NCBI GenBank assembly: GCA_030425385.1
Contig: JAUIAH010000005.1
Location: forward strand, 62,001 to 126,000
Origin: Verrucomicrobiia bacterium
GTDB lineage: Bacteria; Verrucomicrobiota; Verrucomicrobiia; Verrucomicrobiales; DEV007
Direction of reading: 5' to 3'
DNA: 64,000 nt
Part shown: in pieces, positions 9,214 through 56,334 of the stretch
Layout: each line of letters starts with the position of its first letter
Numbering within the stretch: the stretch's first letter is position 1
The notes under the pieces: model-generated
Database searches by the model: none
What the model saw: the letters and a program-made list of their open reading frames with translations, nothing else
Told to the model about the DNA's origin: nothing
Made by a program: the position numbers and the translations under genes

Positions 9214-9424
9214 AGGAAGTCGACTCTAGTGAAACGGCTGCGGAAAAGTGGCGTAACCCATCGCTGAAGCTCCTTCGACGCAGAAGACATGCAGAGCCAC
9301 TAAGAACCTTCCAGCATTTGCTGTCCGAACGGCTTGAAACTTTTTTGTGATGTTGGCGAGCAAATGACGAATTACCCGGTGACCGCGCGGTTTGCGGCGG
9401 TCAGCACCGAGTTCTTCGTCCTTT

Positions 9425-10033
9425 ATGAAACGCTCCCAAGCCATCGATCTCTTCATTCACAAAGACAAAGTCGCGCTGTTCTGGTTCGCAGTCGCGCTAC
9501 TGGTGTCGGTCGGGTTCTGGTGGGAGCGGCAGCGACTGGTGAAGCAACTGATGGCGAAGCCGCAGTTCTTTGTGATGGATGCCAATCACACCTACTACTT
9601 GCCGTCGGCGATGGACTTCGGCAGTGCGAAGGAGGTGCATGCGGCGCAGACGCGTTTGGCGATGGAAGCCCTGTTTAATCGCGATCCGAGTGGGCCAGAT
9701 AGTCCCGAGCGACTGAAGCGGATTCTGGGGCGCGATGCCTATCGCAAGGCGCAGGAAACCTTCGGCAAGGAAGCCGACGAATTTGCCGACAAACAGATTC
9801 ACCAGAAGGTCGAGCTGGGCCCAATCCAAGTCTTGCAAGTGCGCGACGACTCCGTGCTCACGGGCGTCGAAGGCCAGCTGATCCGCAATGGCGTCTTTCG
9901 CGGGAAGGCCTTCACCGAGGTCTTGGCCGTGAAGGCCCAGTTCAAGTTCATCCTCAACCCTGACATGACGGCGAACGGTCGCTTTCCCACCGTGGCCATC
10001 GCCTTCGATTTCACCATGGAATCCAACACATGA
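9425..10033 (+). CDS. VirB8/TrbF-like type IV secretion protein
   Basis: The start at 9425 gives a short cytoplasmic leader, one membrane helix (ALFWFAVALLVSVGFWW, about residues 18-35) and a ~165-residue periplasmic domain. That topology is typical of VirB8/TrbF/TraE. Sequence similarity to a specific family is not obvious by eye. The assignment rests on topology and on position directly upstream of clear TrbG- and TrbI-like genes, with a 4-bp overlap into the next gene. It would be an inner-membrane assembly factor of the channel. Confidence 0.65.
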   Translation: MKRSQAIDLFIHKDKVALFWFAVALLVSVGFWWERQRLVKQLMAKPQFFVMDANHTYYLPSAMDFGSAKEVHAAQTRLAMEALFNRDPSGPDSPERLKRILGRDAYRKAQETFGKEADEFADKQIHQKVELGPIQVLQVRDDSVLTGVEGQLIRNGVFRGKAFTEVLAVKAQFKFILNPDMTANGRFPTVAIAFDFTMESNT

Positions 10034-11010
10034 AACCATCCTCACTCACACACCAACTCCTCAGTCTCTTGGTTGCCGTGCCTCTCGGCCACGCCCTCGC
10101 TGCCGATCCTGTGGAACAGCAAGCGCTCAAGACCGATGGCCCGTTGACGATTGGCGTCGGCAGCAAAGCGGTCACCACTTTGCAGTTTCCCCGTGCCGTG
10201 AACGGGATCTTTGGCTATGGGCTCACGACCGGAGCGGAGCCGGGAACCTATCATTACGCGCATCCCGAAGGCTCGCGCGTCCTGGCTTTGCGCAACCTTC
10301 TGCCTGGCAAAGAGACATTCCTGACGGTCTTGCTTGGACGCGAAGATCTTTACGTGCTCCACCTCAAGCCTTCGGCGGATCCGCCGGCGCTCGTGCGTTT
10401 GACTGAGCCAACCTCACATCATGCGCAAGCACGTCCCATCGATCCCGAAGCGGTTGAGGAGCGCAAGCTGGATCACGACACGGCCCGCCTGTTCAACCTC
10501 CTCAAGCTGGGCAAGAACGAGCGCACGTTTCGGATCGCCGTGCCGCACCTCTATCAAAATGTCGAATCGAAAGACGTCGAGCACCGATGGGACGATGACA
10601 AGGTTGCGACGGTGATCACACGGGTGCATCGCTTCCCGCAAGAAGATGCCATCTTCCTCAACGCACGAATCGAGAATCAAACAGCCAAGCCGCTTTACTT
10701 TGATCCCGGCTCGCTGCAAGTGAAGGTCGGCTCGCGCACCTATCCAACTGCCCTGGTGGATGCTTCCTCCGAGATTCCGGCAAAGGGAAACGTCAACGTA
10801 CACGCCATCATACGTGGTGGGATCGAAGGCGAACGCGCGCATCTCAGCATCAAGAACGAGTTCCAACTCGTCATGGCGGAATACACCGATTCGCCGGACA
10901 CCTTGGCATTGCGAGAGGCGCTCGGCACCATCCTGGAACCGCTCCCGGACGGGCCCGATGCTTCACTCTTTCCTGATCCGATTCCCGTGAAGAAAGGAGG
11001 CTCGAAATGA
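10030..11010 (+). CDS. TrbG/VirB9-like type IV secretion protein
   Basis: The protein has 326 residues with a signal peptide (LLSLLVAVPLGHALA). The mature part carries VirB9/TrbG-like features: an early beta segment (IGVGSKAVTTLQFPRAVNG), LYVLHLKP, and late strands AIFLNARIENQT and LQVKVGSRTYPTALVDA. VirB9 proteins form the outer-membrane core complex with VirB7 and VirB10. The gene overlaps both neighbours by 4 bp. A closely related but broken copy lies at about 61.2-62.1 kb. Confidence 0.75.
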   Translation: MKPSSLTHQLLSLLVAVPLGHALAADPVEQQALKTDGPLTIGVGSKAVTTLQFPRAVNGIFGYGLTTGAEPGTYHYAHPEGSRVLALRNLLPGKETFLTVLLGREDLYVLHLKPSADPPALVRLTEPTSHHAQARPIDPEAVEERKLDHDTARLFNLLKLGKNERTFRIAVPHLYQNVESKDVEHRWDDDKVATVITRVHRFPQEDAIFLNARIENQTAKPLYFDPGSLQVKVGSRTYPTALVDASSEIPAKGNVNVHAIIRGGIEGERAHLSIKNEFQLVMAEYTDSPDTLALREALGTILEPLPDGPDASLFPDPIPVKKGGSK

Positions 11011-12155
11011 TGGGTCGGATCATTGGCTTCTTTAAATCGCCTGCCGGAGCGGGCGTGCTGTTTCTGGTAGGGATGTTCGTGTTCTTCTACTTCGTCCGCC
11101 AATATCGCGAACGGAAGGCGGCCGAAGTCGCGTCGAGCGAACGCGTCAACGTGCTCGGTCAGATGTCCCCTGAGGACGCACCGCATGACCCCTCCCAGCC
11201 GCTCACCTCGCAATGGGTCGATCAAGGCAAGCTGCAGCGATTCGACGTGCCGCACGAGCAAGCCGATCCCCAGGCACCGCTTCCCACACCGACCGCCCAG
11301 CCGAACCAACGTCCAGCCTTGCCGCCTCTGGTACATGTGTTCCGCGAAGCCCCTGATGAACCTAACGAAACCACTGAGCGCTCGGCACCGCGTGTCTTTG
11401 CTCCCACTGGAATGCTCATTCCCTGCCAACTCGTCATCACCGTCGACTCCAGTGCGCTCGACACGCCGGTCGTGGGTATCGTCACCGATGATGTCTGGCA
11501 CAACCAGAATCTCATCGTCCCCGCAGGCACGGAGGTGCATGGCTTCGCCAAACGCGGACGGGTGCGTGATCGCATCGCCGTGACCGGCACCTGGACGTTT
11601 GTTTGGCAGGACGGCAAGGAAGGGCGCATCAATGGTATCGCCCTGGATCGCGACTACGATCCTGACGACGACAGCTTCACCATCACCGATGGCTCGGCTG
11701 GCATCCGCGGCACAGTTGAGAAGACCGATCAATACCTGGAGTTCAAGATGTTCGCTGCCTCCGCTCTGGCTGGCATGACTCAGAATGCCAAGAAGACCAC
11801 GAAGACGGTCTTCGGTGAATACGAGAACAACGGTATTCACAACGCCGTGCTCGATGGTGGTGAAGAGGTCGCTGAGCGCTACGCTCGCCTCATGCTCGAC
11901 CAGATCGAGGGCGATGGCCTCTTTGTCAGAGTGCCCGCCGGAACCGAATTCTACATCTATACCTTGCAGGTGTTCGAGCCGCGGCTCGCCAGTGTGGCCG
12001 GACTGCGCCAAGGCCAGCGCCCAATCAATTCCTGGCAGACCAATCAAACGGAAACGCCCACCACGCAATCGACACCCTCGCCAAGCCGCCAACGTGTCAT
12101 GCGCGAAGCGCTCGAAGAACGCGCTGAAATGGAGCGGCTCCTCAACGAATCCTAA
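11007..12155 (+). CDS. TrbI/VirB10-like type IV secretion protein
   Basis: The protein has 382 residues. A membrane helix (AGVLFLVGMFVFFYFV) near residues 13-30 is followed by a Pro/Gln-rich periplasmic linker (about 50-125). The C-terminal VirB10/TrbI-type beta barrel has LIPCQLVITVDSSALDTPVV, LIVPAGTEVHG, ALDRDYDPDDD and a final VRVPAGTEFYIYTLQVFEP. VirB10 spans both membranes and transmits energy to the outer core. ATG codons at 11007 and 11010 are both possible starts. Confidence 0.82.
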   Translation: MMGRIIGFFKSPAGAGVLFLVGMFVFFYFVRQYRERKAAEVASSERVNVLGQMSPEDAPHDPSQPLTSQWVDQGKLQRFDVPHEQADPQAPLPTPTAQPNQRPALPPLVHVFREAPDEPNETTERSAPRVFAPTGMLIPCQLVITVDSSALDTPVVGIVTDDVWHNQNLIVPAGTEVHGFAKRGRVRDRIAVTGTWTFVWQDGKEGRINGIALDRDYDPDDDSFTITDGSAGIRGTVEKTDQYLEFKMFAASALAGMTQNAKKTTKTVFGEYENNGIHNAVLDGGEEVAERYARLMLDQIEGDGLFVRVPAGTEFYIYTLQVFEPRLASVAGLRQGQRPINSWQTNQTETPTTQSTPSPSRQRVMREALEERAEMERLLNES

Positions 12156-12156
12156 C

Positions 12157-12801
12157 ATGAACGCCTTACTTCCATTGCACCTTGCTACCCTAGCGTTGTC
12201 AGCCTGCACGACAGCGCCAAAACCCACCACCGCGCCTCCCCTGCCGACAAAGCGATCCGCCCAAGTGCGACAAACCACCCTCCAGCCAAGCGACATCCGT
12301 CGCGTCCGCACGGGCGAATTCGTGAAGACCTATCACGTCGGACGTTCGGTCAAAGGTCGCCAGGGCCGCACCATGCATGAAGCGCACCGCGTCTACCGGC
12401 TGGAGAAACCGAGCCGCTGGAACTTGCTGCGCCATCAACCGCCATTGGCCAGCACCGGCCCGGTCAATCAAGTCGTCGATTCCGCCTTCAAACCAGCTCC
12501 CGAGTCCTCCGAGATTCGCGCCGAGCACAACCGGCAACGGGCTATCAGCGAGGAGTTCGAACAAGCTCGCGAGCGTTTGTCGGCAGCGGCGACACGAGCG
12601 GAAGCGCAACTGATGGATCGACACAATAGCGGGCGGGAAATCGCCGGGCTACGACAAGAAGTCGCCGCCTTGAAAGCGCAGAACGCAACCTTGAAAGCGC
12701 AAGTGCCCTCAGAATCTAACGAAGAGACGAACCAGCCTTCGCCCGCTCAGTCCTTGCGTCAGTGGGAAGCCAAGTTGGAGGACGATGAAAGCAAACGTTG
12801 A
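12157..12801 (+). CDS. lipoprotein of the type IV-like cluster
   Basis: The start at 12157 is 1 bp after the preceding stop and gives a lipobox (LATLALSAC, Cys17), so a lipid-anchored protein of 214 residues is predicted. The C-terminal third is a coiled coil (EEFEQARERLSAAATRAEAQ; IAGLRQEVAALKAQNATLKA). It may fill the place of the VirB7 lipoprotein, although it is much longer than classical VirB7. Its last 17 bases overlap the start of the AAA+ gene. Confidence 0.7.
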   Translation: MNALLPLHLATLALSACTTAPKPTTAPPLPTKRSAQVRQTTLQPSDIRRVRTGEFVKTYHVGRSVKGRQGRTMHEAHRVYRLEKPSRWNLLRHQPPLASTGPVNQVVDSAFKPAPESSEIRAEHNRQRAISEEFEQARERLSAAATRAEAQLMDRHNSGREIAGLRQEVAALKAQNATLKAQVPSESNEETNQPSPAQSLRQWEAKLEDDESKR

Positions 12802-13675
12802 ACGATTTCAGGCTTTGCGCGGCGTGTTAGAGCAGCAGATCCTTGGCCAAAGGGAAGTGATTCCATCGGTAGTGGATACCCTGCTCGATGGCGAACTGGG
12901 GCTCACGGGCGCGGGCCGTCCCAAGGGGAGCTTCCTCTTTCTCGGGCCGACTGGTGTCGGCAAGACGGAACTGACCGTGGCGTTCACGCGTCATCTCTTC
13001 GGCGACGAGCACTTGGTGCGCTTCGACATGAGCGAGTATCAGAATCAGGAAAGCGTCGGCATTCTGCTAGGACATTCGGAGCATGAGACCGGACTCGTGG
13101 CCCGTCGCCTGCGTGAAGTCGGAGGCAAAGGCACGGTGCTGCTCGACGAGATCGAGAAAGCCCATCCACGGGTTCTGGATTTGCTTCTGCAAATGCTCGA
13201 CGCGGCGCGACTCACGATGGCCAACGGCGAGACGGTGGATTTCAGTGAGTGCTACCTCGTGTGCACGTCCAACATCGCCGGAGCTGCCATCCTCGATGTC
13301 AGGCACAGTGTCAGGGCCACTTTGGTGCGCTTTGTCGAAGCCCAAGCGCAAGCAGCGCTTCGGCCCGAGATCTTCGCGCGCTTCCAAGTGGTATCGGTCT
13401 TTGATCGGCTCGGCTATGACGATCAACTGGCCATTGCCAGACATCTGCTAGAGCGCGAAATCCGTGAGCAATCGGAGCGGACAGGGATTGAAATCGACTA
13501 CGATGCCGGGCTGATCGCGCACCTCACGGGCGAAGGCTACCACCCCCGGTTGGGCGCTCGCCCCATGCGGCGATGCATCGAACGCTTTGTCCGGCAGGCG
13601 CTGCGCGAGCGCTTGCTCAAGGGCCAAACCGAGGGCATTTGCCTGCAACCTCCATCACTGACATCAGCGGCATGA
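12785..13675 (+). CDS. single-module AAA+ ATPase of ClpB/ClpA D2 type
   Basis: The protein has 296 residues. It contains only one AAA+ module, equivalent to the second (D2) ATPase domain of ClpB with its C-terminal small domain: GQREVI box, Walker A GPTGVGKT (54-61), RFDMSEYQ, Walker B VLLDEIEKAH, sensor CTSNIAG, and the C-terminal signature YHPRLGARPMRRCIERFV. The N-domain, D1 and the coiled-coil M-domain are absent, so it is far shorter than ClpB (~860 residues). It overlaps the lipoprotein gene by 17 bp and the sigma-factor gene by 4 bp, which ties it to the secretion cluster. Possible roles are substrate unfolding or motor function. That is inference. Confidence 0.85.
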   Translation: MKANVERFQALRGVLEQQILGQREVIPSVVDTLLDGELGLTGAGRPKGSFLFLGPTGVGKTELTVAFTRHLFGDEHLVRFDMSEYQNQESVGILLGHSEHETGLVARRLREVGGKGTVLLDEIEKAHPRVLDLLLQMLDAARLTMANGETVDFSECYLVCTSNIAGAAILDVRHSVRATLVRFVEAQAQAALRPEIFARFQVVSVFDRLGYDDQLAIARHLLEREIREQSERTGIEIDYDAGLIAHLTGEGYHPRLGARPMRRCIERFVRQALRERLLKGQTEGICLQPPSLTSAA

Positions 13676-14391
13676 GCACTCCCGATCCTCTCTTTCCCGA
13701 TACCCGCTGGAGTCTCGTCTCGCGCTGGCAACATCAGCCCGAGGTGGCTTCGCGAGCGCTCGAAGACCTCTGCCGTATCTATTGGTATCCCGTCTACGCC
13801 TATATCCGCAACTTGGGACGGGAACACCATGAAGCGGAAGACCTCACCCAAGCCTACTTCGCGTCGCTGATCGAACGCGGTGGATTGATGCAGGCCAGCC
13901 CAGATCGGGGCAAACTGCGCACCTTCTTCTGCATGACCGCCAAGCGATTCGTCGTCGATCACCATCGCCGAGAGCAACGACAACGACGCGGCGGCGAAGC
14001 GACTTTCATTCCGCTGGACGCTGAAGATGCCGACCAGCGCTACCGCTCGGAACCGGCCACGACTGACACACCGGAAACGCTCTTCGAAAAGCAGTGGGCC
14101 AACACGGTCATTGATCAAGCGTTAGGGAATCTGACGAAATACTACGAGCGGCGTGGCAAGCGCGAGTTGCTCACGGCCATGCTGCCCTACCTCAGTCGTC
14201 ACAATCGCGACGGCACCCAAGAGGACGTCGCTGCCAGCTTTGGACTCCAGGTGAATGCTTTCCGCATGCACATCACGCGGATGCGGCAACGCTATCAGGA
14301 ACGACTCCGGGCGGTGGTCGCTGACACTTTGACCGATCTCGATGAGCTGGAGGAGGAACTCGATCACCTCATGCGGATCTTCGAGCGATGA
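13672..14391 (+). CDS. ECF-type RNA polymerase sigma factor
   Basis: The start at 13672 overlaps the AAA+ stop by 4 bp and gives 239 residues (MSTPDPLFPDTRWSLVSRW, a start typical of a verrucomicrobial/planctomycete ECF group). Region 2 is LCRIYWYPVYAYIRNLG with AEDLTQAYFASLIERG. Region 4 is TQEDVAASFGLQVNAFRMHITRMRQRY. An acidic C-terminal tail (LDELEEELDHLMRIFE) follows. No anti-sigma factor lies beside it, but a Ser/Thr kinase is encoded 2 kb away on the other strand; such ECFs are often paired with kinases in these phyla. It probably controls this locus. Confidence 0.88.
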   Translation: MSTPDPLFPDTRWSLVSRWQHQPEVASRALEDLCRIYWYPVYAYIRNLGREHHEAEDLTQAYFASLIERGGLMQASPDRGKLRTFFCMTAKRFVVDHHRREQRQRRGGEATFIPLDAEDADQRYRSEPATTDTPETLFEKQWANTVIDQALGNLTKYYERRGKRELLTAMLPYLSRHNRDGTQEDVAASFGLQVNAFRMHITRMRQRYQERLRAVVADTLTDLDELEEELDHLMRIFER

Positions 14392-15110
14392 ACGACACTC
14401 GCTTGGCCTGGCTGGATCAGGCGCGTTGGGTGGCCATCGTGCTGATGGTCGTCGATCACGCCCTCGTGTTTCTCACTCCCGAGAGTCCAGCCGCAACGCT
14501 CTTGCGAACGACCGTCACCCGCTGCGCAGAACCACTGTTTGTCTTCGTCATGGCTTGGCTCGTCCTCGAACGCCGCCACGCCATGAAGTGGAAACGTTGG
14601 CTGCAGATCGTGGCTTTGTCAGGAATCACGTCAGCCATCCTGTCCGTGAGGCTCGGCTATGCCATGTTCGACGTTCTGGTCAGCATCGCCATCGTCAGTC
14701 CGTACTTGCACTGGTGGAGCCGAATGTCTCACAGAGCTACACCAACGCTCACCTATTTGTCCGGAGCCTTGGCTGTGATCCCACTGGAGTTCGGCGGTGT
14801 TGTCTTCGATTACTCACCACTCCTCTTGCTCTATCAGGTCGGCGTGGCGAGCTGGCTGCGAAGCCAACAGCTTGGGCACATCGTTGCGTCTACAGTCGTG
14901 GCTATGATCGCAACCTCCTGCGGTTCTGCGCTCGGCTGGGCAACCTTGCCCACCTTGTTGATCGTGCTCCTCGGTCACCCGGTGGCCATTGCGGTGCTCT
15001 TGCTCGTAAGGAACTGCAGTTGGGAGATTCCACCCGTTGCCCTGACACTCGCACATTGGCCGCTCACCACCTATGCGGGACACCTCTTCATCCTCGCACT
15101 CCTCCCATGA
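14388..15110 (+). CDS. TraX-like / acyltransferase-type membrane protein
   Basis: The protein has 240 residues with about seven hydrophobic segments. It starts with LDQARWVAIVLMVVDHALVF, the pattern of TraX and DUF1624-type acyltransferases in which an Asp-His pair sits at the end of the first helix. TraX acetylates pilin subunits in F-type conjugation, and heparan-N-acetyltransferase-like relatives acylate sugars. Its place between the sigma factor and the coupling-protein gene (overlaps of 4 and 4 bp) favours modification of a surface component of the secretion apparatus. The substrate is inferred only. Confidence 0.65.
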   Translation: MNDTRLAWLDQARWVAIVLMVVDHALVFLTPESPAATLLRTTVTRCAEPLFVFVMAWLVLERRHAMKWKRWLQIVALSGITSAILSVRLGYAMFDVLVSIAIVSPYLHWWSRMSHRATPTLTYLSGALAVIPLEFGGVVFDYSPLLLLYQVGVASWLRSQQLGHIVASTVVAMIATSCGSALGWATLPTLLIVLLGHPVAIAVLLLVRNCSWEIPPVALTLAHWPLTTYAGHLFILALLP

Positions 15111-16603
15111 TGCCACTGCTCAAACTTCTCGCGGGCCTGCTGCTTGGCGGTGCCGGTGTCGTTGCCTGGTTCACCCTTTCGGCACCGACGCAGCAACCGG
15201 TGAGCCTTGGCCTCGGCGTGCTCGGCTTCTTGTTGGTCATCTGGCCAACGCGAAAGGCGGTGTTGCAGTTGGGTGGGCTGCGCTGGACGGCAGAAGAACT
15301 CTGCCGGCACGTCCTGATCACCGGCGATACGGGTTGTGGCAAGACCTCGTCCGGCTTTCACGCGCTGCTCGTGCGAATGACGCAGCGCATTCCTGAATGG
15401 GGCGGGCTCGTGGTCGGTGTCAAAGGCGACGAAACCGAGTTCCTCGAGGAATTGCTCGACGCCCATGGGCGACAAGAGCACTTGGTGCATGTGCAAGTGC
15501 GGCCCGCCGATGCCGACGCTCACTGGAAGCCGCCGCACCGCTACAACTTGCTCAGCGATCGCTCACTCCCCTGGACAGCCCACGCCAAGGCCATCGTCGA
15601 CACGGCAGCCAGCCTCACGGCGGGGAGGCAAGACGCCTTCTTCAAGCCGATGGCACAGATGGCGTTGGCGAACGCTCTCACTTTGCTTCAAGCGCTTGGC
15701 CATCCCGTCACCCTGGTGCGAGCCTATCACTTGCTCACTTCAGACCGCATACTCAAAGTAGCCCTGGAGGAACTCGAACAACAGCAACCGACCGAAGATC
15801 TCATTCGTTTGTCAGACTTCTTTCACTCGACGTTCGTCGATGCCAAGGCGCACGAACAACGGGAGGGCATCGAAGGCACGATCAAGACCTACCTCGGTTT
15901 CTTTCTCGATCCAGCGTTGGTGGAAGTGTTCTCCAGTGACGAGCCCAACACCTTCGAGATCTCGGAGGTCGATGCTGGCGCGGTCATCGCCACGTCGATG
16001 CCACAGCGTTTTGTCAGTGAGCGGCGCTACATCAACACCTACCTGAAGATGCTCTTCTTCTACCACGCACTCCGACGCTACGAGTTGCCCAGTGCTGAGC
16101 AGCGCAAACGCAACCAGCTGCTCCTCGTTGCCGATGAATACCAAGACGTCGTTACGGCCAGCGAAGATGGCGTCAGCGATCACACCATCGTCGATCGCAT
16201 TCGTGGGGCGAAGTGCGCGATCATCGCCGGAATGCAGAGCGAAGTCTCGGCCGACCCAGCTATCGGGCGCGACAAACGCAAAGTGTTAGCCTTGAACTTC
16301 CGCACAAGACTCATCTTCCGCGCGGCTGACATGGAAGGGGCCACCGCCAGCGCCGATTTCATCGGCAAGAAGAAGGTGTGGAAGAAGTCGACCTCGTCGA
16401 AACCCTGGGGCAGTGGCGGCACCACCCACAGCCGCCGCGAGGACGAAGACTACAAGGTGAAACCTTCCGTGCTCATGAACCTGCGCGATCATACCGCCGT
16501 CATCGTGCATCCCTCGAAGCGCTTCATCCGCAAGCTTATCGCTCCGGTCGATGGCACTGGCAGAGTCGCGAAGTGGTTCCGGCGGTGGCGTGCGTTAGGA
16601 TGA
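15107..16603 (+). CDS. VirD4/TraD-like type IV coupling ATPase
   Basis: The start at 15107 overlaps the TraX-like stop and gives 498 residues. Two N-terminal membrane helices (about 4-24 and 32-47) are followed by Walker A GDTGCGKT (73-80), ILSDRSLPWTAHA-like sequence (NLLSDRSLPW), Walker B QLLLVADEYQDVV, and a TraG/TraD-like C-terminal part containing IIAGMQSEVSADP and RTRLIFRAAD. Coupling proteins recruit DNA-protein substrates to a type IV channel. No relaxase is visible in this window. The last 9 bases overlap the end of the convergent kinase gene. Confidence 0.8.
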   Translation: MMPLLKLLAGLLLGGAGVVAWFTLSAPTQQPVSLGLGVLGFLLVIWPTRKAVLQLGGLRWTAEELCRHVLITGDTGCGKTSSGFHALLVRMTQRIPEWGGLVVGVKGDETEFLEELLDAHGRQEHLVHVQVRPADADAHWKPPHRYNLLSDRSLPWTAHAKAIVDTAASLTAGRQDAFFKPMAQMALANALTLLQALGHPVTLVRAYHLLTSDRILKVALEELEQQQPTEDLIRLSDFFHSTFVDAKAHEQREGIEGTIKTYLGFFLDPALVEVFSSDEPNTFEISEVDAGAVIATSMPQRFVSERRYINTYLKMLFFYHALRRYELPSAEQRKRNQLLLVADEYQDVVTASEDGVSDHTIVDRIRGAKCAIIAGMQSEVSADPAIGRDKRKVLALNFRTRLIFRAADMEGATASADFIGKKKVWKKSTSSKPWGSGGTTHSRREDEDYKVKPSVLMNLRDHTAVIVHPSKRFIRKLIAPVDGTGRVAKWFRRWRALG

Positions 16604-18244
16604 CTTCAACAGCAGGGACACCGCCCGTTTGACCTCAGCGTTGTCCTGTCCTGGAACGTAGAGATCATCGCCGACGATCAAGGCCGCGAGCACTTCAAGG
16701 CGCGAGCGCGTGGTCGCATTCGCTATCTGCACAGGGCCAAACGCGGAGAAAAACGGATGCCGCTTCATGTCAGGGTGGCGCAACGCTTCGTAGATCGCGA
16801 CGCGACGCAAGGCTGCCTGTTCGTCCAAGTCGGCAATCGGCAAGGTTGGAACGCCTAGTTGCTCGCAGAATTGAGGGAAATCAGCGACTTTGGCAGGATC
16901 GAGTTGGAGGTGCTCGGGATCACGGACGAAGAGACCATTGCTTTCGATGAGTGAGAGAATCTTGCAGGCGGCGGCGAACTCTGGCGAACCATTAACGAAC
17001 GCAATTTGCCGATCAGGAAAATCAGGCAGTATGATCGCCAACGACTGCTGGGTAAGTTTGGTAATCAGTGCAACCGGAACGCCGTGCCTTCGCAAGGCTA
17101 CTTGAGTGGAAGCTGCGATGGGCACCTGATAGAGAGTCGGAACATCGATGGCTTCGATCTCGAAGGGGGCGGAACGTGTGACCGCGAAACGAACGAGTCG
17201 GTCATTGATAGGCAGCTCTACTTCATGCTTTCCGGATTCGGGAAGCGCCCGACGTGCCTCATCAATTGCCGCCCAGAAGGCGTTCTCTCCTCGTGATTGA
17301 AAGACCATGAATCCACTCACACCTGCCATAGCCAACCCTCCTGAGGCGAACACCAGCACTCTCCGCCGCGACAACTTCCTGGTCGATCCGAGCAAAGCCT
17401 CACGAAATGCCAATGCCGTGGGATAGCGTTGTGCCGGATCGCTTGCCAGCGCTTTGGCAACGACGTGATCGTAGGCCTTCAACTCGGGGCGTGTCGTGCT
17501 GAGCAATGGCACCGTTCCACCAGGCCATGTGCCGATCAGCATGTAATAGAGAACGGCACCCAAACTGAAGATGTCAGCGCGAGCATCCACCTTCTTGGAG
17601 GAGATCAGTTGCTCCGGAGCCATGAAGCCGTAGGTGCCCATCCGGTCATTGCTGCTGGTTAGCGAGGTGGAGATGCGTTGCGCTCCCAACACTTTGGCCA
17701 ACCCGAAATCGCAAAGCTTCGGAACGCCGTCTTCGGCGAGAAGAATGTTCCCCGGCTTGATGTCACGATGAACGATTCCGTTCTCATGCAGTGCCTGCAG
17801 CCCGAGACAGACATCGGCCATGATGCGCACGGCTTGTTCCGGTTCGAAACGGGTACCTTCAGCAATCTGGTCAGCGATCGATCCTCCCGTCACGTATTCC
17901 ATCACCATGAACGGGTAGTCCTCTGGCGTTTTCCCGAAATCAAGAAAGGTGACGATGTGAGGATTGGCCAAGCTCGCGATGGTGCGGGATTCGCGAAAGA
18001 ACCGCTTCTGGAGTTCTGGCGATTCCTTCAGCCAGTGCGGCAAGAGCTTCACCACGACTCGTTGGCCGTCGTCGTTGCGTGCGAGATAGACCCGCACTCC
18101 CGTTTCGGAGTGGGAAGTGATCAATCGATCCGGCTGGTACTTGCCCATGGTGCCAGCCAAGCGTGCCTCGCCTTCTTCCAGAGCGGACTCACCCGCGCTC
18201 CGGAGAAGATCACGAAAGTTGGCCATGGGATCGTCATTCTCCAT
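16595..18244 (-). CDS. membrane-anchored Hanks-type Ser/Thr protein kinase
   Basis: The protein has 549 residues. The kinase domain (about 40-285) has all key motifs: Lys66 in VVVKLLP, HRDIKPGN with Asp161, DFG at 179-181, and MAPEQL. A basic stretch and one membrane helix (VLVFASGGLAMAGVSGFMVF, about 293-313) follow. The ~235-residue C-terminal region is outside the membrane and has no family I recognise; it may be a sensor. The gene faces the coupling-protein gene end to end, and the nearby ECF factor could be a phosphorylation target. That link is inference from genomic habit in Verrucomicrobiota and Planctomycetota. Confidence 0.9.
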   Translation of the reverse strand: MENDDPMANFRDLLRSAGESALEEGEARLAGTMGKYQPDRLITSHSETGVRVYLARNDDGQRVVVKLLPHWLKESPELQKRFFRESRTIASLANPHIVTFLDFGKTPEDYPFMVMEYVTGGSIADQIAEGTRFEPEQAVRIMADVCLGLQALHENGIVHRDIKPGNILLAEDGVPKLCDFGLAKVLGAQRISTSLTSSNDRMGTYGFMAPEQLISSKKVDARADIFSLGAVLYYMLIGTWPGGTVPLLSTTRPELKAYDHVVAKALASDPAQRYPTALAFREALLGSTRKLSRRRVLVFASGGLAMAGVSGFMVFQSRGENAFWAAIDEARRALPESGKHEVELPINDRLVRFAVTRSAPFEIEAIDVPTLYQVPIAASTQVALRRHGVPVALITKLTQQSLAIILPDFPDRQIAFVNGSPEFAAACKILSLIESNGLFVRDPEHLQLDPAKVADFPQFCEQLGVPTLPIADLDEQAALRRVAIYEALRHPDMKRHPFFSAFGPVQIANATTRSRLEVLAALIVGDDLYVPGQDNAEVKRAVSLLLKSS

Positions 18245-18324
18245 TGAGCGGAAACTCTAATCGCCACAATGATAGACTTTGCGCCTAAACCATGCAATGC
18301 TGTTCGCCCTTCTGCGACAACGAG

Positions 18325-20160
18325 ATGCGCCATCCCAACATCCTTGCATTCGCATGCTGGCTAGGCTCAATCGCCGTTACCCAGGCGCAAACGCCATGGA
18401 TTCATTGGGAAGCCGGGTTCCACAACGACACCGGAAAGGCGGTTGTTTCCGTGCAAGCCGATTGGGCCGCGGACGGCATCCCTCAAAGCTACCACTACTG
18501 GAAAGAGAATCTCGAAGTGGCTGTTACCTGGCGGGCTGGAGACATCCTGACAACGAGGAATGACACGTTGATCTATGAGACAAGTTCCGCTTCAATTGAA
18601 CCAATCCAACTGGACGTTAAGCTCAGCCATCGTCTTGGCCGTGGCCCCATCCAATGGGTCGAATCGCAAGGGCCCACCAATGATGGGCGTATCGCGACAA
18701 GCGTGTCGGATGGTGCCGTCTGCGAATTAGAAGTATTCCTGAACGAAACAAAACTAACGGATCAAGAACAGCGACACCTTACTACCGGTGAGCCCGGGAG
18801 TGGAGAATGGGATCGCATACGACTGAACGTGAAATCCGTCGGTGCCACCTTGGAGACGGGCACTCGAGTCGAACTCCAAATCGCTGGCGCACCGATGGCA
18901 CGATCAACGCACAAGATCCCAAGCACCTCAGACCCACTGCCTTCAATCTTTGTGTTAGATGGCACACGCGAACTGAACTTCTGGGCCACGAAAACAAGGT
19001 TCGACCAATGCCAGCTCCAGTCGGATAGCTCCAAGTTTCTCGTGTCATCAGAGCATCAGTTTGAGAGGCAAGGCAACCATACCCGGATCGATCTCCTCCT
19101 CGGCCATGACGCAACGGTTCCTTCCTTCGAATTCGTCAATCTGCTGATGGAAGCTGACGGATTCACCAATCTGCAGCCAACGGTCCTACTCAACTTCCGG
19201 GAGTTCGAGGTACAGTCCGTAAAGAGCCTCCTTGCAGGTAGCTGGAACCGGTTCCCATCTCATCCGGCAGGCACCCGACCCGCAGGTCGCCCGCTTTGGG
19301 AATCCTCGTTGGCCCTCGCGGACAAGTCAGACATTCACGACTTGGGCCCCATCCTCGACCTGGAGAATGGGATCTTCGTTGCCAAACACATCAACGAACG
19401 CCGGATCCTCAGCGGCGCTGTTCGGCGGGAGATAGCGTCCCATCCAGCGATCTGGAAACAGCGTGAAGCCCAACCGATCCGTCTTTCGCTTCTTCAGGGA
19501 GAAGCGCTTGGCTCAGACAACCGATTCGACATAGACGTTGTCGGCTACGAAGTAGTCGATGGGATTGAGCGCCCCACACTCTGGCAATCAACAGAAACCG
19601 AATGGAAGCGAATCCACCTCCCCACGAAACGACTCACGGTAGGTGGTAGAGCTTTCGACATCAACAACACTGGTCTTATCTGCGGCTACACGGAAATCCT
19701 GCATGGAGGCGTGTCGAACCGAGTTCCATCCCTTTGGAAACAAGACGCCGAAGGCAACTACCAAAGCCACACACTGCCAGTTCCAGAGAATGCCATTCAT
19801 GCCGTGGCCGTCGCCATCAACCGCCGGGGAGTCGTCGTAGGCTGGTTCTCCGATGAAGACGGCAACGGTCGCGCATGCTACTGGGAACCGGGCACGGAAG
19901 GTGCCTCCTATCAATTTGTCGATCTGGATACGCTTGGCGTCGCACGCGGCATCAACGATCTGGATCAAATCGTCGGCGGCACCGACATCGACGCCTACCT
20001 GTGGCAGAGCGGCAAGCGCATCGACCTCTCCCAGATTCCCGGAGCCCCAGCACAAAGCCGCGCGCTCAGCATCAGTCACCTCGGGGAAGTCATGGTGTTG
20101 ACCGACAAAGGTGCGCGCCAATTGCTCGTACCGAAAACAACATTCACGCCAATCAAGTGA
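18325..20160 (+). CDS. secreted protein with C-terminal HAF-like repeats
   Basis: I chose the Met at 18325 because it gives a normal signal peptide (MRHPNILAFACWLGSIAVTQ); the frame extends to 18292 with a Cys-rich leader. The first ~380 residues are beta-rich and unrecognised. The last ~200 carry HAF/beta-propeller-like repeats (AFDINNTGLICGYTE, AVAINRRGVVVGWF, ARGINDLDQIVGG), a motif of extracellular proteins in which 'IN..G.IVG' recurs. It is divergent from the kinase gene by about 80 bp. Function is unknown. Confidence 0.72.
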   Translation: MRHPNILAFACWLGSIAVTQAQTPWIHWEAGFHNDTGKAVVSVQADWAADGIPQSYHYWKENLEVAVTWRAGDILTTRNDTLIYETSSASIEPIQLDVKLSHRLGRGPIQWVESQGPTNDGRIATSVSDGAVCELEVFLNETKLTDQEQRHLTTGEPGSGEWDRIRLNVKSVGATLETGTRVELQIAGAPMARSTHKIPSTSDPLPSIFVLDGTRELNFWATKTRFDQCQLQSDSSKFLVSSEHQFERQGNHTRIDLLLGHDATVPSFEFVNLLMEADGFTNLQPTVLLNFREFEVQSVKSLLAGSWNRFPSHPAGTRPAGRPLWESSLALADKSDIHDLGPILDLENGIFVAKHINERRILSGAVRREIASHPAIWKQREAQPIRLSLLQGEALGSDNRFDIDVVGYEVVDGIERPTLWQSTETEWKRIHLPTKRLTVGGRAFDINNTGLICGYTEILHGGVSNRVPSLWKQDAEGNYQSHTLPVPENAIHAVAVAINRRGVVVGWFSDEDGNGRACYWEPGTEGASYQFVDLDTLGVARGINDLDQIVGGTDIDAYLWQSGKRIDLSQIPGAPAQSRALSISHLGEVMVLTDKGARQLLVPKTTFTPIK

Positions 20161-21740: not shown

Positions 21741-22876
21741 GTCGATTTGGTGCGATTGCTAGCCTGTGGGATTCGAATCTCAACCTGCATTCCATTCTCC
21801 GGTCCGCTGGATAGGGTCAATTGTCCACCGTGAGCACTGACATATCGGCGACAGATTGGGAGTCCGTAACCCGAGCCGAAGCCCTCGGTCGACCCTGCAC
21901 GCTTTTTAGATGAGCCGCCCGGGATGAACTCCCGGAGCTTTTTTAGATCGCGAGGTTCGACCCCTTTGCCCGTGTCATGAACCGTAATTTCAAGGCACTG
22001 ATTCCTGACGCCTGCAGTGATGGTGACCTGACCGGGCTTCACTGAAGTTGGGGAAACTGCATGAGCCTCGATGCCGTTCTTGATGAGATTCGTGAGAACC
22101 ATAGCAATGTGAAATCGAGACACGTCGAAAACTAGGTCGTGCGGAACCTCGACCTTGCACTCGACACCATGGGTCTCGCGCCCGTGGCTCTTAAGTTGGT
22201 CAATGGCGCTCTTGACCGACTCCTGGCAAAGCTCGCGAATGTGTTCTGGCTTCAGCTTTAAGGCTAAGTCTTCAGAATAGTCTGACATCATCCTCACAAG
22301 GCCTTGGAGATAGCTTCTCCCGTTTTTGAATCGCTGTGCCCGTTGCTTAATGGCGGAGGATGCTGCATCACCCTTCAGTTCTTCCAAATCCACGTTCAGA
22401 TGCGTTAGGACATTTTTTATGTCATGGACGGCGCTCCTCAGGTGCAGCTCAACGAACTTTTCGGCCAGCTTCAAGGAAAGGTTGCGCGCATCAGAACCGA
22501 ACTTCGTCTCGATCGTCTCGAGCGCTCGTTGAATAATCGCTGGATTCGAACTTGCGAGACTCGATGCTGGGCTTCGGCGCTCGAGTGATCTCTTTGCCGT
22601 CTTGCTTACCAGTGCGTTTGAGTCTCCGGCGAGAACCGCGCTCAGGCTCCTGAACAAGTCGTCAGGAATCCAAGCAAGAGCTTCTGCGACTACCTTGCGT
22701 ACTTCCCATTTGGGATCGTTGGCATACTTCGAGAGAGCAAGTAGGGCCTCGGTATTAGCAGCATTCTCTCGGATAAGAGAGCAAGCCGTCTCAGCTTCCC
22801 GTTTGCGCTTGCTCCAGGAGGGGGGCTCTCCTTGTGTGCCTGATGTAGTGCCACGATCGGTCATCAATTCATCCAT
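21737..22876 (-). CDS. soluble histidine kinase with HEAT-like N-terminus
   Basis: The start at 22876 is chosen because it overlaps the upstream ATPase stop by 8 bp (translational coupling); it gives 379 residues and removes an unlikely upstream leader. Residues 25-110 contain helical HEAT-like repeats (LLALSKYANDPKWEVRKVVA; LSAVLAGDSNALVSKTAKRS). The dimerisation helix has H151 in AVHDIKNVLTHLN. The ATPase part has the N-box LTNLIKNGIEAH, HDTGKGVE and GFGSGYGLPICRRYVSAHGG. No membrane segment is present, so it should sense an internal signal or a partner protein, plausibly the ATPase. Confidence 0.88.
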   Translation of the reverse strand: MDELMTDRGTTSGTQGEPPSWSKRKREAETACSLIRENAANTEALLALSKYANDPKWEVRKVVAEALAWIPDDLFRSLSAVLAGDSNALVSKTAKRSLERRSPASSLASSNPAIIQRALETIETKFGSDARNLSLKLAEKFVELHLRSAVHDIKNVLTHLNVDLEELKGDAASSAIKQRAQRFKNGRSYLQGLVRMMSDYSEDLALKLKPEHIRELCQESVKSAIDQLKSHGRETHGVECKVEVPHDLVFDVSRFHIAMVLTNLIKNGIEAHAVSPTSVKPGQVTITAGVRNQCLEITVHDTGKGVEPRDLKKLREFIPGGSSKKRAGSTEGFGSGYGLPICRRYVSAHGGQLTLSSGPENGMQVEIRIPQASNRTKST

Positions 22877-24755
22877 TGTACCGCTCACCTCGAAGCCGGA
22901 AGGCATCCTTGCCGCCCTCGAGGAGATTAATAATCTCATCCCGGCAATCGTCAACCCCCCCACACATTTTTACGGCGCCTGAGTGACCATTGGATTGCAT
23001 GACGAGGACGAGCTCCGCTTCCCCCAGGACAGGAATGTTCGGGTTGTGGGTGACGAAGATCAGCTGCCGACGGGTCTTGACATTCCGAACGCTGGTCACA
23101 ATCGATTCGAAGACATAGCTGTTGTCGAGATTGTCCTCCGGTTGGTCGATCATCAGCGGGTTGGCGCTCTCAAGCATCAGAATTGGCAGGATCGCAGTGC
23201 ATTTCTGTCCGGTTGAAAGCTCCGATGACGCCTTGTAGACGTCGTTATCGCACAGCTCGATCAACGGCAAATCCTCGCTATCGACAACTTCCAGGGTCAT
23301 GAGCTGATCCGGCGGCGCAAGGCACTTGATGACGGTGGCAGCCTGCTTCAGATTGATGCCGGTGGCTCTCTGAAGGCCAGTTTGGTCTTCCTGGCGAACC
23401 ATCTCTCCAAGCTCCTGCGGAGATATGGCAGCGCTGATGGAGCCTGCAACAGATCTCTGTTGAATCCGCGATCCGCGCAGTGCTTCCTCCAAAACTCGAC
23501 GGAAGGCTTCTTGGTCTGCATTCTGAGTGACGGTGACACGAATGCTTGGCAGAAGCTGTTCGTTGAGGTGACTAGCCACCTTCTGGCGAATCTCGAACCT
23601 TCGGTCCCTCTCCTCGGAGAGCCTAGCCAGTAGAATCTCGCGTTGCGCAACGTGTTTCTTTATCAGGGTTTTGACTTCCTCAAGCCGCCCAGCTTTGGAA
23701 AGAAGTTCATTCTGCTGTTTTTCGAGCTTAATTCGCTCTGCGGATCGGGCTTGGTTCTGCTGCTGCGTTTCAAGTGTCTTTCGGAACTCTAGTTCTTGGG
23801 CAGCATGTCGTTTTTCGAGATCAGCGATCTCACCCCGCACCGATTGGTTAGTTGTCTTCAGAAGATCAACGACTTTTGCTAGCATATTCTTAGCCTCGCC
23901 GACTCCACTTCGGGTGGCGACCTGGATCCTGCTAACAATTTCACCGTTTGGTCCCTCCTTTAGATCACGCGGAATCTCTTCAGTTCCGCGGCTATCGATC
24001 ACATCAATGATTTCTTGAATCTCTTCCGCGAGACTCAGCAGGCCTGAGGCGGAATCGGCTACGATGCGTGTTTCACGATCCCTGGACGCTTTTTTAATAT
24101 GCGCTTGATTGACGATCGGAGCACTATCTCCCCCCTCATTCGAGAAACCCTTCAGTCTCTCTCTGATTCCTTCTAGCTGTATTAGTTCGCCTTCGAGGTT
24201 TGCTTGCTCGTCTGCCAAGGGAAGAATGGCCGAGGCGTTGGATTCAAGTGCCCTCACAGTTTCCCCGATCTTGGCGCGAACCGCTCGAAGATTCTCTTCT
24301 TCGAATTTATCAAGAAGATCGAGTTGGTAGTGAGGGGTTTCCGCAATGTACTCGATCTCGTTCTGGCTGTAGATGTCCGCCCGGAAGATCTGAGCAACCT
24401 GCGGAGACATGGGCAAAGTGTTACCGCTAGAATCGACTAGTATGGGATCCTCGTTTGCAGACCGACTGATCGTATAGACCAGGTCATCCTTCGTTTCGAT
24501 GGTCAATTCGACTCTCCCTCCGCTCAGGTTCGTGTCGATGAGCGATTGAACCCGCTTTTGGACGGGATCGCCTTTCCTTCCCGGCATCACATTTAGCGCG
24601 AATCTAACCATTTCCTGAACCGTGCTTTTCCCTGTGCCCCTTGGTCCGATAATGCAGTTCAATCCGCGATCAAATGAGAGGTTCAAGTCCTCAAGGAATC
24701 CGCTAGTGACTTCTATACTTCTGATGCGATGGGATGGCTCTTCGGATTGCAGCAT
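22869..24755 (-). CDS. SMC/TrlF-like AAA ATPase with coiled coil
   Basis: The protein has 628 residues. Walker A GPRGTGKS lies at 37-44. A long central coiled-coil region (about 145-430) is followed by an ABC-type signature LSTGQKC (~513), Walker B PLMIDQPEDNLD (~533) and the switch THNPNIPVLGEAELV (~569). The C-terminal block matches my memory of TrlF/PHP-AAA ATPases, but the N-terminal PHP phosphoesterase domain of those proteins is missing. It is therefore a stand-alone ATPase that could sense DNA ends or phage structures, as SMC-like ATPases do in several defence systems. It is the first gene of a leftward operon; its stop overlaps the kinase start. Confidence 0.88.
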   Translation of the reverse strand: MLQSEEPSHRIRSIEVTSGFLEDLNLSFDRGLNCIIGPRGTGKSTVQEMVRFALNVMPGRKGDPVQKRVQSLIDTNLSGGRVELTIETKDDLVYTISRSANEDPILVDSSGNTLPMSPQVAQIFRADIYSQNEIEYIAETPHYQLDLLDKFEEENLRAVRAKIGETVRALESNASAILPLADEQANLEGELIQLEGIRERLKGFSNEGGDSAPIVNQAHIKKASRDRETRIVADSASGLLSLAEEIQEIIDVIDSRGTEEIPRDLKEGPNGEIVSRIQVATRSGVGEAKNMLAKVVDLLKTTNQSVRGEIADLEKRHAAQELEFRKTLETQQQNQARSAERIKLEKQQNELLSKAGRLEEVKTLIKKHVAQREILLARLSEERDRRFEIRQKVASHLNEQLLPSIRVTVTQNADQEAFRRVLEEALRGSRIQQRSVAGSISAAISPQELGEMVRQEDQTGLQRATGINLKQAATVIKCLAPPDQLMTLEVVDSEDLPLIELCDNDVYKASSELSTGQKCTAILPILMLESANPLMIDQPEDNLDNSYVFESIVTSVRNVKTRRQLIFVTHNPNIPVLGEAELVLVMQSNGHSGAVKMCGGVDDCRDEIINLLEGGKDAFRLRGERYNG

Positions 24756-28812: not shown

Positions 28813-30150
28813 TCAGGCCGATTTCGCTCCGTCGGAATTCGATTTCAGCGATTGTCGGTCAACATTCGTGGCGAGCAAGCTTCCCAGTCCGACCGTCACG
28901 CGTTCCCGTTTGTCGACGTAGTGTTGGGCCGTGATATGAATGTCAGCGTGGCGAAGGAACCGGCTGGCGGCGAACAAGCCGCTATTCTGGCAGACAATGC
29001 TTCCAGCCTCCTTCCGAAGGGCGTGTAAGGGCTTCTGATCGTCGAGCCCGTTTTCGCGAAGCCAAGCGGTGAGTCGCTGGAAGACGAGCATCGCACGGTA
29101 GTGAGAGTAGCTCGAACCCAGTTGAGGCGCGGTGGCGCTTTCAATGACGAACTCTCCCTTTGCTCGCGCGCGGAAGCCGCGAAGCAAGTCGACGATCTCC
29201 GGGTCGATTTCCAGGACGCCCATGGACTGCTCGGTCTTCGGCACATGATAGGGCGTCGCCTCGATGCTGATGGTTCCAGAATCGAAATCGACCTGTCGCC
29301 AAAGGAGCGTATCGATCTCCTTTCGTCGCAGGCCTGCAAACAGGGCAAGGAGGAATGCTTTGTAGACTTCCAGGCGTAGCTCGAACTCAGAAACGCTCTC
29401 GTCCTCTCCCTTGGGCCCTCCCAGGCAGCTGCCCGCCTTACCGATCAACTCTTTGACGTCGATTCGGGACACGTATCGCATCGATGTTCTCGGGAACAAC
29501 GAGACCCCTGCAAGAGGAAGCGGCTCGGGAAGAATCAGCTCCTTGGAAATATAGGGTCGAATCTTCCGCCCAAAGAGTGCCTTGGACTTTCGCATAAAGC
29601 TGTTGGCGGTGATCTTCGCTGAACGTTGCTTTACGGGATCGTTCCCAGCGCGCTTCACGTAGTCGAGTTTCCAGCGGTGCACCTTTTGCGCATCAATTTG
29701 CTCAAGGTGAATCTGGTCAACATTCTCACGCCACTGCTTCATCACCGGTACGTGGCGGCTGGCAGGTCGATTGCCGGTGATGTCCCCCACGATCTTTCGG
29801 AACGACGTCGCGTAGTCTTGAAAGGTGCGAGCGCCGATGTCTGCGACCGCGCTTGCCTCCTCGATGTACTCTCCAACCGTCGCCGAACGCGGAGCCGCGA
29901 ACGACTCCGGCTTGAATTCGGCCAAGGTGGCTTCCCAACCGTTTGCCTGAAGGCTCAGATAGATCTTCTGTGCCCGCTTGGCTGCCGCATCTCTGTTAGG
30001 GGTCTGAAGAGGAAAGCGAACGCGCTTGCCACGGAAGGCAATCTGGACGGAGAAATCAGGGGAATATGTCCCTTTGGAAGACTTCGTTTTGCATACTTTC
30101 TCACGCCAGTAGCGAAGGTCGGATCGTGGGTAAGGTTTGTCTGAATTCAT
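28813..30150 (-). CDS. tyrosine recombinase / island integrase
   Basis: The protein has 445 residues. A core-binding region (about 100-190) is followed by a complete catalytic domain: Arg in ALFAGLRRKEIDTLLW, Lys region IEATPYHVPKT, HALRKEAG (HxxR), a His, and Tyr in AQHYVDK. The protein is longer than minimal integrases, with an N-terminal arm-type domain (VQIAFRGKRVRFPLQTPNRD). It is transcribed away from a tRNA-Leu fragment only ~170 bp upstream, the standard arrangement for an integrase beside its attachment site. It most likely inserted the island to its left. Confidence 0.93.
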   Translation of the reverse strand: MNSDKPYPRSDLRYWREKVCKTKSSKGTYSPDFSVQIAFRGKRVRFPLQTPNRDAAAKRAQKIYLSLQANGWEATLAEFKPESFAAPRSATVGEYIEEASAVADIGARTFQDYATSFRKIVGDITGNRPASRHVPVMKQWRENVDQIHLEQIDAQKVHRWKLDYVKRAGNDPVKQRSAKITANSFMRKSKALFGRKIRPYISKELILPEPLPLAGVSLFPRTSMRYVSRIDVKELIGKAGSCLGGPKGEDESVSEFELRLEVYKAFLLALFAGLRRKEIDTLLWRQVDFDSGTISIEATPYHVPKTEQSMGVLEIDPEIVDLLRGFRARAKGEFVIESATAPQLGSSYSHYRAMLVFQRLTAWLRENGLDDQKPLHALRKEAGSIVCQNSGLFAASRFLRHADIHITAQHYVDKRERVTVGLGSLLATNVDRQSLKSNSDGAKSA

Positions 30151-30178: not shown

Positions 30179-30321
30179 TTTTGAGGTTCTGAACGTTTTC
30201 AACGTGAACCAAACTGAGCATTAAGTCAAACCCGTAAAATGCTTGCTATCATCAGGTTACAACCCAAATTGAGTGTAACTGCGCCTAACTAATTTCACCT
30301 GTTCTAACCCCCACTTTTTCA

Positions 30322-30373
<52 letters not shown>

Positions 30374-51471: not shown

Positions 51472-51855
51472 ATGAGATTCGAGCGCGAACCCTATCGCTA
51501 CAAATCGGAGGACGCCACGCGGGAAACCATCGCGCAGTATCGCGAGAAGAAAGCCGAGGTCGTCGAGCGTCGCGATGCCTTGCGTGAAGAGATCAGCCAA
51601 ACGGTGAACTCCTTGGAAAGTGCCGAGACTGATAGCGAAGTGAAGAAGCTCATCGGGCAACAAACCGAACTGCAAGCCATCGATCAGGAATTGGAAATCG
51701 CCCAGGCCGATGCCGAAGCGCGGGCCTTGGAAAACGAGAACCAACGCATCGCCGAAGCCAAAGCACGGGGCGAAGAAAGCGCCCGCCGCTTTGAAGCCGC
51801 CAACCGCGCCGATGTCCAAACCTACCGCCTCGACCAATCCGCCTACGGCTGGTGA
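51472..51855 (+). pseudogene. coiled-coil TrbJ/VirB5-like fragment
   Basis: The reading frame gives 127 residues, almost all charged helix (YREKKAEVVERRDALREEIS, LIGQQTELQAIDQELEIAQA), ending RLDQSAYGW. The frame is also open ~45 bases upstream of this ATG without another start. There is no signal peptide, so it looks like the C-terminal part of a VirB5/TrbJ-type protein. The link rests on coiled-coil character and on type IV pieces farther right (VirB6-like, TrbG-like) in the expected order. It could also be an unrelated intact small coiled-coil gene. Confidence 0.45.
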
Positions 51856-51931
51856 AGCCGGAAATTATCAGTTCAAAAATCAGAAATCATCAATCGTAAA
51901 TCATCAATCAAGCGTCAGCGCCCCCCTTCTC

Positions 51932-52027
51932 ATGTTCCAACGCAACCGCATCGAACTCACTAGCGACATCACCAAACCGCCACGCACCAATTCGGTAGGG
52001 GAAACCGGAAGGAATGAAGAACGATGA
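51932..52027 (+). pseudogene. short ORF, possible N-terminal scrap of the next type IV gene
   Basis: Thirty-one codons (MFQRNRIELTSDITKPPRTN ...) follow the coiled-coil frame. A duplicated short sequence (aaatcatcaatc) lies between them. No family is recognisable; its position suggests the start of the next transfer gene, cut off where the VapBC pair begins. Confidence 0.25.
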
Positions 52028-52126
52028 TGGTCTATCCCGTTGGAAACGCGACAGATACTTGCCGGAGCATGTTGAATGATGAATTCTGAAGTGTTTGCCA
52101 GTTCCGTGATCTGCCGTTCGACGACC

Positions 52127-52561: not shown

Positions 52562-52801
52562 CTAAGAGTCGTTGTAAATGGCGTCGCGAATGGAGTCCCA
52601 GCCCTTGTCCCGGAACTCTGGTTGCAGTCCCTTCCCTTTGAAGGTCACCCATTCGATCTGACCCGATTCGGGCGATTCCGCCTGGTCCAGAACTCTGCGC
52701 AATCCTTCCTCGATCAAGCGCCTCAGCGTCGTCTCCGATTCCTCCGCAAACGCCTTCGCTCGCAAGAGCACATCGTCAGCAATATCCACAGTAGTCTTCA
52801 T
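52562..52801 (-). CDS. vapB: VapB-type antitoxin
   Basis: The start at 52801 (MKTTVDIADDVLLRAKAFAE) is chosen because it is the typical ribbon-helix-helix start; the frame to 52879 adds an unlikely leader. The protein has 79 residues. The RHH part ends near LRRLIEEGLRRVLDQ, followed by a toxin-binding tail (GWDSIRDAIY). It would neutralise VapC and repress its own promoter. Confidence 0.88.
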   Translation of the reverse strand: MKTTVDIADDVLLRAKAFAEESETTLRRLIEEGLRRVLDQAESPESGQIEWVTFKGKGLQPEFRDKGWDSIRDAIYNDS

Positions 52802-56315: not shown

Positions 56316-56334
56316 GAGTGTTCGTCCTCACACT

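Follow-up and report, generated by a model that had tools for sequence, protein, structure and literature searches.

Type IV secretion systems (T4SSs) of the VirB/VirD4 type (type IVA, Trb/Trw-like) are carried by integrative and conjugative elements (ICEs), and another T4SS, MPF-F, is encoded by the F plasmid. The VirB11 ATPase is typical of type IVA systems and is absent in F; the F T4SS is not known to include a Clp-like ATPase. Here we analysed a T4SS gene cluster in a 64,000-nucleotide stretch of a Verrucomicrobiia genome (assembly GCA_030425385.1, contig JAUIAH010000005.1, positions 62,001 to 126,000). The whole stretch is called the window below and is numbered from its first letter. 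The cluster, located at window 9425-16603, is probably one of three transfer operons, the last in order, on an ICE of about 100 kb that resides in a tRNA-Leu(TAA) gene. C48 denotes the contig that holds the window; C27, C35, C39, C53 and C6 are other contigs of the same genome (G000), and G003 (from the same genus), G011 and G140 are other genomes.

The locus resembles the VirB/VirD4-type T4SSs of ICEs in having VirB2, VirB3, VirB4, VirB5 (TrbJ), VirB6 (TrbL), VirB8, VirB9, VirB10 and VirD4, together with a tyrosine integrase, a tRNA 3'-end attachment site and a MOBF relaxase, the last on the sister elements of C39 and C27. It differs from them in that VirB11 was not detectable, a Clp-type AAA+ ATPase and a conserved lipoprotein are added, the operons are split by cargo, and the element contains extracytoplasmic function (ECF) sigma factor genes and a common promoter. 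With the F system it shares the MOBF relaxase, TraX, the lack of VirB11 and a VirB9 model that best matches a chain of the F core complex. However, its parts are of the TrbI/TrbL/TrbJ type, and F-specific mating-pair proteins did not turn up, no search having been aimed at them. The picture that remains is of a familiar kind of conjugation system on an ICE, unusual in two respects: it has a Clp-type ATPase that co-evolves with the machinery, and a regulon with a private promoter.

A study of R388 showed that its MOBF relaxase, TrwC, needs unfolding for passage through the T4SS and states that the unfoldase responsible "remains unclear" (PMC5826034). A 2025 T4SS review mentions neither Clp nor an unfoldase (PMC12857230), and literature searches on T4SSs and ICEs of Verrucomicrobia and on Clp with T4SSs found no description or precedent.

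The window contains an intact operon of eight transfer genes

All eight genes at 9425-16603 were present on the plus strand, with 1-bp gaps or overlaps of 4-17 bp, as a first-pass annotation made from the sequence alone had described, and none contained an internal stop. Five of the identities that it had proposed agreed with Pfam matches above the curated cut-offs. These were VirB10/TrbI (382 aa, 11007-12155; TrbI 59 bits, cut-off 35), a single-module Clp/HSP100 D2-type AAA+ ATPase (296 aa, 12785-13675; AAA_2 and ClpB_D2-small, also judged from alignments), an ECF-type sigma factor (239 aa, 13672-14391; Sigma70_r2 34.9 bits, Sigma70_ECF 30.1 bits), a TraX-like membrane acyltransferase (240 aa, 14388-15110; TraX 30.1 bits, cut-off 25) and a VirD4/TrwB coupling ATPase (498 aa, 15107-16603; TrwB_AAD_bind 51.5 bits, TraG-D_C 27.4 bits). 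The TraX-like protein is likely a pilin acetylase.

The first two genes had no significant Pfam match, and searches with VirB8 and VirB9 profiles against PDB sequences returned nothing useful; their identities came from structures predicted with AlphaFold2 (AF2) and compared with Foldseek. The product of gene 1 (202 aa, 9425-10033) showed an N-terminal transmembrane helix and an NTF2-like periplasmic domain. Its model (predicted local distance difference test, pLDDT, 81) gave CagV, DotI/IcmL, TrwG and VirB8 as best matches (E 1e-5), and homologues were found throughout the order. The VirB9/TrbG-like product of gene 2 (326 aa, 10030-11010; pLDDT 68) matched chains of the F-plasmid outer-membrane core complex, DotH, the Xanthomonas citri core complex and R388 TrwF/VirB9; the top match was the F core-complex chain, and the best E value was 4e-11. 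The VirB8 and VirB9 assignments of the first-pass annotation, which had suggested a structure prediction for the former, were thereby supported. Gene 4, which it had left unnamed, encodes a lipoprotein at the VirB7 position (214 aa, 12157-12801); in the alignment, its lipobox Cys is invariant and an MHEAH.VYR.E motif is conserved. Its profile matched 30 of the 388 genomes of the phylum, representing 25 genera; its PDB matches were coiled-coil noise and were discarded.

Two further transfer operons lie on the same contig

The annotation had noted that VirB4, VirB6 and a relaxase are missing. This held for the eight-gene interval and also for the window, save decayed VirB5, VirB6 and VirB9 fragments at 51.5-62 kb, but not for the contig and the genome. 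The Pfam model of the VirB4 N-terminal domain (PF03135) gave no match in the genome, and VirB4 had no match among PDB sequences. The former was a sensitivity failure, as a paralogous cluster on C27 made clear: there, VirB8 is preceded by a VirB3-like gene, a 920-aa open reading frame (ORF) containing the P-loop domain of VirB4, and genes for a TrbJ-like protein, SSB and TrbL/VirB6, the last above the Pfam cut-off. A search with the C27 VirB4 as query brought the number of intact VirB4 genes in the genome to three (C48:7396-10092, C39:91667-94342 and C27:110107-112785). The C48 copy, which shares the strand of the window operon, matched PF19044 with 34.5 bits (cut-off 25.8).

Two operons were recognized around these genes on C48. 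The first (6.6-10.9 kb) contains VirB2, VirB3, VirB4 and an ECF sigma factor; the second (19.7-23.3 kb) contains a Gly-zipper lipoprotein, two small proteins, TrbJ/VirB5, SSB and TrbL/VirB6 (22205-23341). The VirB2, Gly-zipper lipoprotein, VirB5, SSB and VirB6 homologues were all intact. The VirB2-VirB4 genes and the VirB5/VirB6 block thus lie 48-65 kb upstream of the window operon, outside the window but on the same contig and strand.

C48 and C39 have three blocks in common, with order and orientation kept, outer limits nearly identical and different sequence in between. Block 1 covers VirB2-VirB3-VirB4-sigma (C48 6.4-10.9 kb, 94% identity), block 2 runs from the Gly-zipper lipoprotein to TrbL (C48 19.7-23.2 kb, 93% identity), and block 3 is window 9339-20149 (C48 71.3-82.1 kb, 91% identity). 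The near-equal limits of the three blocks on both contigs indicate that the window holds one operon of three. Besides the operon, block 3 contains a Ser/Thr protein kinase gene (16595-18244, minus strand; Pfam Pkinase), which accompanies it on both contigs, and is closed by a gene for a 622-aa protein with weak DUF3466 similarity (18292-20160, plus strand).

When the C48 and C39 copies were compared, dS of the window genes was 0.17-0.35, and the ratio of nonsynonymous to synonymous substitution (dN/dS) was 0.02-0.09 in seven of the eight genes, TraX having 0.34. The other T4SS genes ranged from 0.035 (VirB4) up to 0.11. These sequence comparisons indicate that the window operon is maintained by purifying selection.

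The sister elements on C39 and C27 carry, in related order, a MOBF/TrwC relaxase with a helicase domain, DUF932, SSB and a tyrosine integrase, as well as ParA-like genes, of which the C39 copy was tested. No relaxase matching PF03432 was found in the genome, whose relaxases are MOBF. Homologous sets are compact in relatives: in G003, of the same genus, the relaxase, VirD4, Clp, VirB10-VirB8, TrbL, TrbJ and VirB3-VirB4 all lie within 16 kb, and other members of the order have contiguous complete transfer sets. A VirD4 scan of the genome collection gave two contigs only. The annotation had linked a VirB4/VirB6 set adjacent in close relatives with a merely decayed conjugation locus. VirB6 does adjoin the same genes in C27, G011 and G003, and VirB4 likewise in C27 and G003, but decay does not describe the window cluster, in which all genes are intact and dN/dS is low except in TraX. 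In the G003 cluster (contig C566; 16089-19124 of locus L048), VirB3 and VirB4 are apparently fused in one 1011-aa ORF.

From the gene content, operon 1 would supply the pilin and the channel motor, and operon 2 the stalk and the inner-membrane platform. Operon 3, in the window, would provide the periplasmic and outer-membrane core (VirB8, VirB9, VirB10 and the lipoprotein), the DNA-loading VirD4, TraX, an ECF sigma factor and the Clp-type AAA+ protein.

The transfer operons share a promoter-like element

The VirB8 gene is preceded, at a distance of 50 bp, by a promoter-like element, TGTGAT-N16-CGAATTAC, at window 9346-9375 (plus strand; TGTGATGTTGGCGAGCAAATGACGAATTAC). We searched the 8-Mb genome with the pattern TGTGAT-N(14-18)-CGAATTAC and obtained 14 exact matches, against 0 for a reversed control pattern. 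All 14 had a 16-base spacer, even though 14-18 bases were allowed. On C39 and C48, the sites precede the VirB2, Gly-zipper lipoprotein, VirB8, relaxase and parA operons, and close variants (CGAACTAC) precede the kinase gene. Another four sites are arranged as divergent pairs where C35 and C53 begin; one more was found on C6 in the neighbourhood of ICE genes. C27 carries a CGTGAT-N16-CGAAT variant before the relaxase, kinase, parA, VirB2 and Gly-zipper genes, with 0 matches in the reversed sequence. No variant precedes VirB8 on C27, where this gene directly follows TrbL; the detached operon on C48 thus has a copy of its own.

C48 and C39 each encode two ECF sigma factors, within operons that bear the element. 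Both the spacer length and the exclusivity of the element are consistent with a promoter of the ECF type, and its occurrence before the transfer operons supports their control by element-encoded ECF sigma factors. Each of the three operons, with cargo between them, begins with a TGTGAT-N16-CGAATT promoter; if the element's own sigma factors read it, the split parts would be expressed together. The earlier suggestion that the cluster is switched on by its own sigma factor is plausible given the common promoter, with the pairing of sigma factor and promoter being our inference. The private promoter makes the regulon of the element predictable from its sequence.

An integrase and a tRNA repeat mark the right end of the element

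A tyrosine recombinase gene at window 28813-30150 (minus strand; Phage_integrase PF00589 at 28816-30150, 37.8 bits, cut-off 27.1) is located at the element's right end. The 3' end of tRNA-Leu(TAA) recurs 171 bp beyond the integrase as a 53-bp copy (52 identical), which represents a candidate attR (30321-30373, plus strand), recognized as a repeat shared with C35. The intact tRNA-Leu(TAA) gene lies at C35:3352-3438 and adjoins a parA module that shares 94% identity with its C39 counterpart. An integrase next to a tRNA 3' repeat is the arrangement expected for an element inserted in a tRNA gene. The repeat suggests that C35 and C48 flank a single contig gap, which would be expected to hold the relaxase.

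Several observations weigh against an ICE that is complete and active. No relaxase was found on C48, and C35 ends where that of the window's element would be expected, with the relaxase-type promoter alone left at the contig edge. The two contigs are separate in the assembly, their join being deduced from the att repeat. A rearrangement, instead of ICE cargo, could account for the 48 kb that separate operons 2 and 3. The VirB2 pilin gene of C39 (C39:94771-95046) has a premature stop (69 versus 92 aa), the C48 and C27 copies being intact. The low dN/dS may also predate arrival, if both copies were under selection while mobile in other hosts, and is therefore no proof that the operon functions in this one.

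We regard as unlikely, among the alternatives, that the element is an immobile or decaying ICE, whose genes remain open but whose transfer became impossible when it was split and lost its relaxase. The C48 operons are indeed 48 kb and 9 kb apart, a transposase-like gene adjoins TrbL on C48, and the search of that contig for a relaxase was negative. Truly decayed transfer genes also occur in the window: VirB5, SSB and VirB6 fragments at 51478-53114 are separated by a type I restriction-modification system (53194-61230) from a VirB9 fragment at 61217-62221. This decayed region is found rightward of the tRNA repeat, beyond the ICE. By contrast, all T4SS genes of C48 are intact with low dN/dS, the detached operon has its own promoter copy, and the integrase and the tRNA repeat are present. 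We favour an ICE split by cargo that may actually transfer.

A T4SS that delivers protein effectors or toxins to other cells, as the bacteria-killing T4SS of X. citri does, is very improbable. It would have the VirB8/VirB9/VirB10/VirD4 core in common with the window cluster, and the VirB9 model matches the X. citri core-complex chain among others. However, the MOBF relaxase with its helicase domain, parA, SSB, DUF932, the integrase and the defence cargo of the sister elements are those of a DNA-transfer element, and no effector/immunity pairs turned up, none having been searched for. The "export machine" of the first-pass annotation is wrong as well: a lineage-specific reduced form, in which VirB8/9/10, VirD4 and a Clp unfoldase would secrete proteins without VirB4, VirB6 or relaxase, is barely credible and is refuted as worded. 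In its favour, these genes are absent within the eight, and C39 carries a duplicate of the whole block, the copies being under purifying selection. However, the genome-wide look for VirB4 and VirB6 that the annotation proposed showed that both copies are accompanied, on their own contig and strand, by intact VirB4, VirB5 and VirB6 genes, the homologous clusters of relatives are complete and contiguous, and the common promoter links the operons. Seen in a short piece of sequence, a transfer region split into operons by cargo can pass for a novel minimal machine.

A Clp-type ATPase accompanies the transfer genes

The Clp-type AAA+ protein is the real novelty of the locus. Like the D2 module of ClpB and ClpC (HSP100), it combines AAA_2 with ClpB_D2-small and has the catalytic residues conserved: Walker A and B, sensor 1, the Arg finger and sensor 2 were invariant in 15 of 15 sequences. 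Unlike those proteins, it consists of a single module of ~300 aa and has neither an N domain nor D1. The GYVG pore loop, a five-residue segment, was deleted in all 23 T4SS-linked copies and kept in the genome's own ClpB- and ClpC-like proteins. Because the loop is absent in every copy examined, the protein is probably not a canonical threading unfoldase; the idea of a machine "powered or fed by an unfoldase" is weakened, the missing motif being the one with which ClpB and ClpC grip substrates. Three large proteins with GYVG-less Clp-D2-like modules (ORFs of 764-1147 aa) are clustered at C39:211215-218676, distant from T4SS genes.

We surveyed the placement of the Clp-type gene with queries from outside the window and with the 23-copy comparison, on which the conclusions rest. 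A single-module Clp-type gene was present in most clusters examined, either after the lipoprotein gene or upstream of the VirB2-VirB4 operon; the clusters included those of C48, C39, C27 and G003, all fetched clusters of family f4 and others elsewhere in the phylum. Across 23 clusters, Clp distances correlated with VirB4 distances (r = 0.957; 0 of 2000 permutations reached this value), VirB10 being comparable (0.949). The view of the protein as a lineage-specific companion of the T4SS was borne out by its presence in most clusters and by its tracking of VirB4.

No VirB11 (TIGR02788) above the cut-off was detected in 142 genomes. An apparent VirB11 in G011, the best sub-threshold match, probably belongs to a Tad/CpaF-type locus, as judged by its neighbours. 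Like VirB11, the Clp-type protein is an ATPase encoded beside T4SS core genes, but it is of a different family and not a simple one-for-one replacement. In the stretches read, the G140 cluster and two G011 clusters had neither Clp nor the lipoprotein, nor a recognized VirB11; a strict replacement of VirB11 by Clp was therefore set aside. Their absence from these clusters indicates that Clp and the lipoprotein are lineage-specific additions.

We infer that the Clp-type protein may act as an ATP-driven remodeller of the transfer apparatus or of the relaxase-DNA substrate. A bolder proposal is speculative, and we give it limited weight: a pore-loop-less Clp ring would be a dedicated T4SS part in Verrucomicrobiota, doing the job of VirB11 or unfolding or remodelling the relaxase before export, and the whole multi-operon element would be switched on by its own ECF sigma factor through the private promoter. 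The locus offers a conjugation system from a poorly studied phylum that combines a MOBF relaxase with a Clp-type ATPase, with VirB11 not detectable, and the co-evolution of this Clp-family protein with VirB4 makes the relaxase-unfoldase question testable by deletion.

Cargo and other features

The gaps and flanks of the elements carry cargo, including AbiEii, a type IIG-like restriction enzyme and, on the contig C39, a BREX system; that of C27 includes apparent metal-efflux genes. The BREX genes BrxL, PglZ, PglX, BrxC and BrxA lie at C39:32712-53701 and adjoin a gene for a very large protein that matches the PADLOC Hhe/PDC-S37 models. AbiEii-type toxin-antitoxin genes (C39:88136-90083) are inserted between the VirB4 and VirB5 operons, and an AbiEii-type pair (C27:50818-52262) adjoins the integrase, as judged by eye. 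C6:512000-526173 and C53:1-9889 hold parts of at least one additional member of this element family, interrupted by contig ends close to the relaxase. Near the right edge of the window, a gene on the minus strand (62620-63657) encodes a TonB-like protein whose Glu-Pro repeat is very long.

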